From: Kiritimatiellia bacterium
GTDB taxonomy: Bacteria; Verrucomicrobiota; Kiritimatiellia; RFP12; JAAYLN01
Direction of reading: 5' to 3'
Assembly (NCBI GenBank): GCA_028718445.1
Contig: JAQULY010000003.1
Location: 1-35,088 of the forward strand
DNA length: 35,088 bases
In this document: piece after piece, positions 22,163 to 25,513 of the stretch
Numbering within the stretch: position 1 is the stretch's first letter
Layout: every line of letters starts with the position of its first letter
Made by a program: the position numbers and the translations under genes
The notes under the pieces: generated by a model
Told to the model about the DNA's origin: nothing
Database searches by the model: none
The model's input: only the letters and a program-made list of their open reading frames with translations

Positions 22163-22465
22163 ATGGCCGTCAACTACATGCGTTTCGTCGTTCGCTGCGT
22201 GCTGGTCTTCGCCGTGATCGTGGCCGTGGCGGCCAGCGTGCTGATCTTCCCTCCGGTGATACGCAGATGGCGAATTCTGATTCAGAAGCGGGATCAGGTT
22301 GTCAAGTCCACGCTGGCCAAGCAGGAGGAGTTGGCCGGTATCAAGCGCCGCCAGTTGCGTTTTCAGGAAGATCCCGAGTTTGTGGAACGGGTCGCCCGGC
22401 AAAACCGCCGTGTCCGGCCGGGCGAGATCATCTTTATCTTCGATACTCCGCCCGAGGAGGAGTGA
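22163..22465 (+). CDS. FtsB/DivIC-like (septum formation initiator family) small membrane protein
   Basis: 100 aa; one N-terminal TM helix, coiled coil 'QKRDQVVKSTLAKQEELAGIKRRQ', C-terminal 'EDPEFVERVARQNRRVRPGEIIFIF'. Confidence 0.7.
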   Translation: MAVNYMRFVVRCVLVFAVIVAVAASVLIFPPVIRRWRILIQKRDQVVKSTLAKQEELAGIKRRQLRFQEDPEFVERVARQNRRVRPGEIIFIFDTPPEEE

Positions 22466-23081
22466 CCGCCTGTTCCGGCGCGGCGGCCGCCTTCAGCAGC
22501 AGATCGTGCCATGCGGCGGCCGCGGCGGCCAGAGCCCGTCCGCGGTGCGAGATCCGGTTCTTGGCTTCCGGCGCCATGACGGCAAAGCTGTCGTTCGATC
22601 CCTCCGGCACGAACAGCGGGTCGTAGCCGAAACCGCCGCCGCCGCTGGGCTGCAGGGCAATGCGGCCCTCGCAGCGGCCGTCAATCAGCCAGTGGCGTCC
22701 ATCCGGCGCGCACAGCGCCAGCACACACCGGAATCGCGCGCGGCGGTCGGCCACGCCCTCGAGGGCGCGCAGGAGCTTGCGGTTGTTGGCGGCATAGTCC
22801 GCGGCAGGACCGGCGTAGCGGGCCGACATTACGCCGGGCGCCCCGCGCAAGGCGTGGACTTCCAGGCCGGAGTCATCGGCCAGTGTCCACAGGCCGCTGG
22901 CCTCGCACAGCGTGCGCGCCTTCTTGAGCGCATTGCCTTCGAACGTATCCGCATCCTCCTCGACCTCGTCCGGCAGTCCCGGAACGTCGTCCGCGCCCAG
23001 CAACTCCATACCGGGCAGGGCCAGGATGGCTTTGATCTCGGCGAGTTTGTGCGCGTTACGCGTGGCTATCAGGAGTCTCAT
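22434..23081 (-). CDS. rdgB: XTP/dITP diphosphatase (Ham1/RdgB family)
   Basis: 215 aa; 'LLIATRNAHKLAEIKAIL', 'EDADTFEGNALKKAR', 'LADDSGLEVHALRGAPGVMSARYAG', 'GFGYDPLFVPEG'. Overlaps the converging FtsB-like gene by 32 bp. Confidence 0.95.
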   Translation of the reverse strand: MRLLIATRNAHKLAEIKAILALPGMELLGADDVPGLPDEVEEDADTFEGNALKKARTLCEASGLWTLADDSGLEVHALRGAPGVMSARYAGPAADYAANNRKLLRALEGVADRRARFRCVLALCAPDGRHWLIDGRCEGRIALQPSGGGGFGYDPLFVPEGSNDSFAVMAPEAKNRISHRGRALAAAAAAWHDLLLKAAAAPEQAVTPPRAEYRR

Positions 23082-23186
23082 TGCCCGGAGTGTCGCACGC
23101 CCCGCCCGCCGCCGTCAACCGGGACGGAGGAGACCCTAAACTGCGGAAGTGCGCGCTACAACATGCACGCAGACGCGCGCCACCGC

Positions 23187-23269
23187 GGCCCGCGTGGAAG
23201 CGGGCCCTCCAGATGTTAATACAATCGCCCGTTGAAGTATCCGCTGGAGGGCCGGTTTCCACGCCGGCC
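23187..23269. repeat. REPIN-like element: two inverted REP-like hairpins separated by 31 bp
   Basis: Left arm 23187-23212 GGCCCGCGTGGAAGCGGGCCCTCCAG; right arm 23244-23269 CTGGAGGGCCGGTTTCCACGCCGGCC; arms are 23/26 complementary and each contains its own perfect hairpin. Confidence 0.7.
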
Positions 23270-23389
23270 TTATCCCGCGCGAATCAAACGCATGGCGCGG
23301 CGCACGCGAGGTGGCAACTCTCGCAGTTTTGGCAGGAGACCCGGCGACGTAGGGAACGATATCTGAAACTCGACGCGGCTTTCCCGCCT

Positions 23390-24145
23390 CTAAGGGCCCA
23401 TAAGCCTGGCGAGGGTCGGCTCAATGGCGTCGCAGAGGACGCGGCAACCGGTCGCGTTCGGATGCAACCCGTCGAGAAAGAGATCGCGGCGGAACTGGCC
23501 GGCGGCGTCATGGAAGGCGGAACCGACATCGAGGAAGGTCACGCCATCCTTGCCGTTCAGTGCGGTGCTTAGGCGATTGACCTCCACCAGTTTGGCCGGC
23601 TGGTTCGCATGTGGGAGAATTCCCAGCAGCAGGATATTGGTGGTGGGCAAGCGCCTATGAACTTCGGCGCAGATGGCGGCAATGCCTGCCGCGATTTCCT
23701 CCGCGGTATTGAGCCCGAGGTTATTGACGCCGATGAGGATGACCGCCGCCTTGGGCGCGATGCCGTCAAGTTCGCCGTTCCGCAGCCGCCAGAGAACGTT
23801 CTCGGTCCGATCCCAGCCAAAACCCAGATTTACGGCGTTACGTTTGCCGAAGTACTGCGTCCACACGTCCGGCGCCCGTGCGATTCGATGCTTCGGCTCG
23901 CCACCCCAGTAGTGGATGATGGAATCGCCGATCAGGATCAGGTCCGGCTTTTTCTCTTTCAGGCAAGCCAGCACCTCCTGATGCCGAGTCGGCCAGTCAT
24001 AGATCTGCGGTTCGCGATTGTGCGTCACCGGGACGATCGCGGTATTCGTCGGCATCACTGGCGCAGGGAGAGAAGCCGTCGGCGCGCCGACCGCTAGGCA
24101 GAATGACGTTCCGGTCCAGGCGATCACTGCAAATGCGATTCTCAT
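23390..24145 (-). CDS. Secreted SGNH/GDSL-family hydrolase (esterase/acetylhydrolase-like)
   Basis: Start reset to ATG 24145, giving signal peptide 'MRIAFAVIAWTGTSFCLAVGAP'; 'DLILIGDSIIHYWGG', 'AAVILIGVNNLGLNT', 'DLFLDGLHPNATGCRVL'. Confidence 0.88.
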   Translation of the reverse strand: MRIAFAVIAWTGTSFCLAVGAPTASLPAPVMPTNTAIVPVTHNREPQIYDWPTRHQEVLACLKEKKPDLILIGDSIIHYWGGEPKHRIARAPDVWTQYFGKRNAVNLGFGWDRTENVLWRLRNGELDGIAPKAAVILIGVNNLGLNTAEEIAAGIAAICAEVHRRLPTTNILLLGILPHANQPAKLVEVNRLSTALNGKDGVTFLDVGSAFHDAAGQFRRDLFLDGLHPNATGCRVLCDAIEPTLARLMGP

Positions 24146-24165
24146 GGGAATCTCCAATCTGCGCC

Positions 24166-25513
24166 TCACTGTACAGAATTTCCGCGATCTTCGCACAGTC
24201 TAATAGATCTCGCGATACCCGCGAGTCGGGAGCCGTTACGTGAATGCAATGTCGCGATATCGTTTTCGCTGACAATATCCTCGATCAGGTCGCCTTGAAT
24301 GACGCGATAAAGGGACTCGAAATTGGATTTTGCCTGATAAAGTTGCAGCAGGCTCCGATTGTCCTGCCGTTCTTCCCATTTTGAACGGGCGAGATCGAAC
24401 GACTCCTTTGCGCTTTTCAGTCGGGTCGATCTTTCGTCCGATTCCGGGAAACACGGCAACCGAAACTCCGGCAGGGCGGGAGGAGGAAGCCGCAGGGATA
24501 AAACGGACTGAAGTTCAGCTTCCACCTCTTGCCGCTGGGACAAAAACCGATCGATGGCCAGCACATAGGCTTCGTCAACCCAGTCGCCCAGCACGGCAAC
24601 GACACGGGTGGATGCGTCAGGCGGACGGATTTCGATTTTCACGCTGGAGCTTTCGGAACCACCCTTTTCGCCCTCCAGGATGACGTTTTCCGTTGTTTCC
24701 CTGGCCGGCGCCAGCACGACGCCCGCCGTGTTTTGCCCATGCCGGTTGAACAGGGTGAAACGCAGGGAGTCGTTCGTCGTGAAGCTGTGCGTGGCTCCAT
24801 CTAAAGGAAGCCGACGACCCGCGGCGTCGAGCCAGCGCTCGCGCCACCATTGCCCTCGGGCGCTGTAATCAAATGGATGGCAGGAGAACACATAGGTCAG
24901 GCGTTCGACTTGCCGATTGACCGGGGGCTGATATTCGAGATTGAGTCCGAACCGATCCAAGTTCCCGCGCCAGCCGATGAACCGCGCCTTCAAAAGACCT
25001 CCCGCGGCATCTCTCCAGAAGGCCTCCGCGACAATGCGGGAGGGCGTCGCCTCCCGTATTCCCGCGTGGACGAGTTCCCCGGAGTGGGTGGGCGATGGCA
25101 GGGATTCGGCATCGCCGGTCAATCGGATGTCGGCGTCGAGAAACGACCAGGAACTCCAGTTCGACAGTGCGTACCCGGCCGTTTTTTTCCCCATGATGCC
25201 GGTGGAACTGTCCCCCCACTTTTGTTGCTTGGGCGGAAATCCGGTCGCGGGGTCGAGTCGCTGTGTCGCCGTGAAACCAAATGCGCCGAACCGAAGGACG
25301 GCTTGGCGCTCGGTGAATCCGCTTCGATCCGCCGCGTCGCGCCCCCCCCGTCCCTTCGATGACCGTGGAGGAGAAACGCTCGCTTGCGACAAAAGAGGTG
25401 TCGCCAGTCATGAAGGCTTGTTCGTTGTCCTGCGAATGCCCGGGCGCCGCCCAGGCGAACAGCAGAGCGGACACAGGCAAATGCCATAGCATCGTTCGCT
25501 TCGTCGGGATCAT
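24166..25513 (-). pseudogene. Secreted hypothetical protein interrupted by a -1/+2 frame offset at a G8 tract (frameshifted, phase-variable, or sequence error)
   Basis: ATG 25513 encodes signal peptide 'MIPTKRTMLWHLPVSALLFAWAAPGHSQ'; its frame degrades after the C8 (plus) / G8 (minus) run at 25342-25349 while the 408 aa ORF frame continues. A 7-G tract would join '...STVIEGTGG' to 'RDAADRSGFTERQ...' giving ~448 aa. Confidence 0.75.

Follow-up and report, generated by a model that had tools for sequence, protein, structure and literature searches.

An inverted hairpin doublet resembling a REPIN lies inside a probable miniature inverted-repeat element of a Kiritimatiellia genome

Results

The hairpin doublet between rdgB and a GDSL-lipase-like gene

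The window, i.e. the whole stretch of DNA that was analysed, comprises 35,088 nucleotides from the draft genome of a Kiritimatiellia bacterium. A gap of 308 bp separates rdgB from a GDSL-lipase-like gene and is gene-free, as had been noted in a sequence-only reading of the window. The gap contains two arms of 26 bp, which are complementary at 23 of 26 positions and each carry a local hairpin, just as that reading described them (Table 1). The arms differ at positions 5, 14 and 16. Positions 5 and 16 pair with each other within each arm's own hairpin, as C-G on the left and G-C on the right, so that the proposed compensatory change is genuine, and by the difference at position 14 the right arm loses the seventh base pair. 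The module has the layout stem-GTGGAA-stem'-CCTCCAG, followed by the spacer and then the mirror image. A 97-nt stretch folds far more stably than shuffled sequences, with z-scores of -6.9 for RNA and -4.9 for DNA, and its predicted fold is a single long hairpin formed from arm to arm.

Table 1. Features at the locus, in positions of the window
Feature	Position	Strand	Description or basis
RdgB/Ham1 XTP/dITP diphosphatase gene	22434..23081	-	Pfam PF01725, TIGR00042
Left flanking duplication AGGAGA	23128..23133	.	sequence; repeats 23334-23339
Complete 200-bp element (family A MITE)	23134..23333	.	nine-copy alignment and genome search with consensus
Left terminal inverted repeat CCCTAAACTGCGG	23134..23146	+	alignment; the next 11 bp of the other copies are deleted here
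Left arm	23187..23212	+	hairpin GGCCCGC-GTGGAA-GCGGGCC (23187-23206) and foot CTCCAG
Spacer between arms, 31 bp	23213..23243	.	period fixed at 50 bp between copies
Right arm	23244..23269	-	foot CTGGAG and hairpin GGCCGG-TTTCCACG-CCGGCC (23250-23269)
Right terminal inverted repeat GCCAAAACTGCGAGAGTTGC, minus-strand reading	23314..23333	-	pattern search
Right flanking duplication AGGAGA	23334..23339	.	sequence
GDSL-like lipase/acylhydrolase gene	23390..24196	-	Pfam PF13472

Doublets are dispersed within larger elements

Searching the 5.7-Mb draft genome for the arm pattern, at most two mismatches being allowed, yielded 57 matches versus 13 for the reversed control, and the arm recurs as inverted doublets with a fixed period of 49-50 bp. 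Near-exact matches in the window are restricted to the two arms themselves, in line with the earlier remark that no second copy was noticed there. In family A the doublet consists of one GCG arm and one ACC arm 50 bp apart, in family B of a CCC arm and a CCG arm (GTGTAA loop) 49 bp apart. A sample of 101 contig stretches, covering 1.7 of the 5.7 Mb, contained 11 strict doublets, and all 11 are located inside elements of families A or B. Thus, inverted doublets are dispersed as anticipated, but free doublets are absent from this sample and singlets are few, and the doublet, sitting within a larger dispersed element in every case, cannot be regarded as the mobile unit.

Alignment of nine family-A copies showed that homology extends 60-70 bp past each arm and then ends abruptly. 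The arm coordinates given in the sequence-only reading were therefore correct, but the element had been delimited too short, as homology between copies spans positions 23134 to 23333. Members of family A are 200-210 bp in size, a full copy measuring about 210 bp. Using a 210-bp consensus we detected ten copies or large parts of copies in the genome, six with identities of 93-99%, the window copy with 91%, and three that are older or incomplete with 81-89%. The termini are inverted repeats, CCCTAAACTGCGAGAGTTGC and variants, and a terminal-repeat pattern of this type matched the genome 42 times versus 0 times for the control. The short non-coding unit hence carries terminal inverted repeats (TIRs) at both ends, the left one being partly deleted in the window; this copy is old and, with its left end damaged (about 11 bp lost), probably immobile now. 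A third family, C, has ends as in family A and a different interior with its own hairpins in a related layout.

The many dispersed copies are mostly intergenic. By a crude gene call on the 101 contig stretches (1.7 Mb) 86% of the DNA is coding, versus 13%, 1% and 7% of family A, B and C sequence, respectively, confirming that the doublet elements lie mostly outside genes; such a strongly extragenic position is the usual location of MITEs. Short dispersed repeats are very abundant in the source genome (G000) and include several further families with inverted ends; in the same contig stretches, 184 segments measure 40 bp or more and have no fewer than six relatives. Family-C MITEs are themselves interrupted by two different multi-copy elements, always at the same point, namely the foot TTGGAG belonging to the right hairpin, in four cases (C9, C181, C176, C481; L342-L345) and two cases (C59, C140; L089, L129), respectively. 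One of these inserters begins the ORF MPQQ.SRLF...VVSCYEAGRDGFWIDR, which has an IS110-like look, yet gave no family-model match; the targeting of hairpin feet in family C recalls the insertion of IS110-type elements into REPs (PMC1525189). A test for 4-mer enrichment before perfect hairpins returned only GC-rich noise.

Target duplications and empty sites

In addition to AGGAGA in the window, flank repeats were found as GCCCGG at C359, TGGCGC at C503, and 5-bp repeats at further elements. The best single offset for 6-bp repeats is common to four elements and that for 7-bp repeats to three, whereas shuffling the right flanks 200 times gave at most 2 and 1; several family-A copies (C127, C194, C36) have no flanking duplication. 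The family-C element in C235, bordered by CC-CTAGAC and GTCTAG-GG, lies inside a dispersed repeat of about 400 bp, family D, and its joined flanks are matched by some twenty other family-D copies. Comparison with the one empty site inspected in detail shows that ACTCA (5 bp) was duplicated, with one copy now reading ACTAA. Family B likewise has the look of an insertion: in most of its copies, as read by eye without a control, it splits the family-D end GGGTCAG-TGAGATG and has TCAG on either side. Target-site duplications as expected for a MITE are thus present as AGGAGA in the window, at several other copies, and, as the empty sites show, at a copy of the sister family. In the stretches examined, the copies of family A yielded no empty site of comparable clarity, and target duplication by family A is deduced from the shared ends and its own flanking duplications.

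Y1 genes are not associated with the element

The doublet had been proposed to be a REPIN mobilised by a RAYT enzyme. Seven Y1_Tnp matches are present in the genome, and the four proteins that were scored against NCBIfam REP_Tyr_transpos reach 48-54 bits, below the cut-off of 80. Hence, RAYT-like Y1 genes do exist as suggested, but none is flanked by the hairpin: the flanks examined (those in C86 being short) contain neither a GGAGG-foot hairpin nor the element beside any of the seven genes, and blastn of the element against the Y1-gene flanks gave no match. Four Y1 genes possess unrelated inverted repeats of their own. These RAYT-like genes (L031 in C339, L033 in C443, L034 in C41, L037 in C39) have inverted repeats of 22-30 bp, CAGGGTCAGACCTAGAACCTAG, GGGGTCAGCCCTCGAAATAA and GGGTCACGTCTCAACATTCAACA, and by sequence would fit the TIRYT type. 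The ends of family D, GTAATGGGTCAGTGAGATG (L185:16050-16454, L165:7761-8200, L183:17488-17727), have GGGTCAG in common with the inverted repeats of the Y1 genes, and family D may be mobilised by those Y1 enzymes. The ends of the window element differ from the Y1-gene TIRs.

REPs that border classical RAYT genes have a GT(A/G)G head (PMC2817692), and in a REPIN the doublet is the replicative unit (PMC3116915). The foot of the doublet is CTGGAGG and neither a GT(A/G)G head nor a CGTC tag, GTGG occurring in the hairpin loop only; the doublet is not dispersed as a unit with singlet remnants, and no cognate RAYT gene flanked by a REP was found among the seven Y1 matches in the flanks examined. Neither property holds here, and family A is very probably not a REPIN. 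What stands of the proposal is that inverted hairpin doublets with compensatory stem changes are dispersed, mainly outside genes, in a genome with Y1 genes. The mobile unit is a different one, and mobilisation by a RAYT is not supported, as the copies end in TIRs with target duplications of 5-6 bp, which RAYTs are not known to generate.

The terminus recurs in a second genome

The arm pattern stayed near control level across 58 relatives. The terminal repeat is numerous in only two of 388 sampled genomes of the phylum, the source genome and G011, a genome of the same order, where 37-38 matches lie on different non-coding interiors; three other genomes contain a single match each, with one mismatch. 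The two genomes have in common the terminus and not the hairpin core, which is expected if one transposase type serves both sets of MITEs. In the G011 loci L296-L331 the terminal repeat sits on two other non-coding interiors, one of which is near-identical among copies and broken at contig ends; this suggests recent activity. Many G011 contigs break inside the repeats. No transposase between such ends was found in the source genome or in the G011 loci read, both assemblies being fragmented. The only exact TIR match in the genome contig set is coding and a chance match (L139); viral contigs contained no exact TIR and seven arm-pattern matches. The 5-bp duplication and the terminus CC(C)TAAAC hinted at an IS1380-type transposase as parent, which we rejected, as only a remnant with other ends was found. 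This IS1380-like remnant, at 8323-9460 of L179 (G000:C41), matches PF13701 below the cut-off and is an insertion beside the tail of a Y1 gene, and its ends are unlike those of the window element.

Constraint on the hairpin module

Among 12 distinct arms of families A and B 90% of the stem cells are paired, double changes in stems number 14 versus a shuffle mean of 6, and sliding the stem partner abolishes pairing; the rows being related and hand-chosen, these values represent support, not a probability. The stems of the module vary by compensatory substitution, and loop GTGGAA and foot CCTCCAG are constant. Pairwise divergence among family-A copies amounts to about 4% in the arms, 11% in the spacer and 14-20% in the outer parts, with the left outer value inflated by broken copies. 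The arms are the best-conserved part of family A, and the stems covary between families A and B. Judged by this pattern of variation, something acts on the hairpins, the candidates being transposition, RNA structure and gene conversion.

Discussion

Our data make it very likely that the window element is a decayed copy of a non-autonomous MITE of 200-210 bp with a REPIN-like double-hairpin core, moved by a putative DDE-type transposase. This interpretation is based on abrupt shared ends, dispersed copies, TIRs and flank repeats beyond those of shuffles, together with the family-C empty site, the termini in G011, the extragenic bias and the confinement of doublets to families A and B. The ends and duplications indicate that transposition probably occurs in trans: an IS-type (DDE) transposase encoded elsewhere would recognise CCCTAAACTGCGAGAGTTGC at each end and insert the element through a 5-6 bp staggered cut. 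The moving unit would be the whole TIR-bounded element and not the double hairpin, which constitutes a constrained internal module, is able to fold when single-stranded or transcribed, and may assist transposition or dampen what the insertion does to neighbouring genes.

A true REPIN, i.e. an inverted REP doublet moved by a RAYT (Y1 HUH) transposase, would account for the fixed spacing, extragenic location and compensatory stems of the doublet, its conserved foot and loop, the superior conservation of the arms within family A, and the weak REP_Tyr_transpos matches of the Y1 genes. We consider this very improbable, as in the 1.7 Mb doublets are present only within larger TIR-bounded elements, homology ends at TIRs with target duplications, the Y1 genes lack an adjoining hairpin or element in the flanks examined while four have unrelated inverted repeats, and the copy number is merely in the tens. 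It is also improbable that the elements are composites in which a once-mobile REPIN-like double hairpin was captured by two MITEs (A and B) and is now cargo: the 1.7 Mb contain no free copies of the core, both families are equally derivable from a single MITE with diverged ends, and family C has a related layout with its own hairpins, even though families A and B, with their different termini, agree in the hairpin-loop-foot layout, are spaced almost equally and have weakly similar spacers (129 of 5000 shuffles were as good). That the double hairpin is a unit functional by itself, swapped among MITEs whose termini are unrelated, for instance as a single-strand signal for a second, Y1-type enzyme, appears rather doubtful to us; if true, these elements would have two layers of mobility or control.

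Finally, a local cis-acting RNA element of rdgB, a leader structure or a terminator, would suit a position 52 bp upstream of the start codon and a strong RNA fold. Such a role is extremely unlikely, since the same element is found at many unrelated loci, a scan of the window against Rfam matched nothing, and the doublet has neither an intrinsic terminator nor a promoter-like site.

Inverted palindrome doublets alone are thus insufficient for calling REPINs, as the lookalike studied here proved to form the inside of a miniature transposon with TIRs. Within the MITE interpretation, a hairpin module that is common to two families differing in their ends, and that shows compensatory change, provides a testable case of structure maintained within MITEs.

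Like REPINs (Bertels and Rainey 2011, PMC3116915) and RAYT-associated REPs (Nunvar 2010, PMC2817692), the doublet is an extragenic pair of inverted palindromes with fixed spacing and compensatory stems; unlike these it is embedded in TIR-bounded elements and, in the 1.7 Mb, never free, and it differs from REPs in its foot (CTGGAGG instead of GT(A/G)G), in having no adjoining Y1 gene and in its few copies. As in TIRtrons (TIRYT; Di Nocera 2013, PMC3733652), Y1 genes of the genome are flanked by TIRs, two of these genes with a GGGTCAG/GGGGTCAG motif resembling the published GGGGWSAS, but these TIRs are unrelated to the ends of the window element. Family A is most similar to the prokaryotic MITEs Correia/NEMIS, ERIC and QMITE2 (reviewed in PMC10969869), which are likewise non-coding elements of about 200 bp with TIRs, short target duplications, intergenic position and strong stem-loop transcripts. 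In contrast to those, its termini and sequence are new, and it contains a conserved inverted hairpin pair whose layout is common to a MITE with different ends. Family A is therefore a new family of a common class of mobile DNA, and the hairpin pair inside it is unusually well kept.
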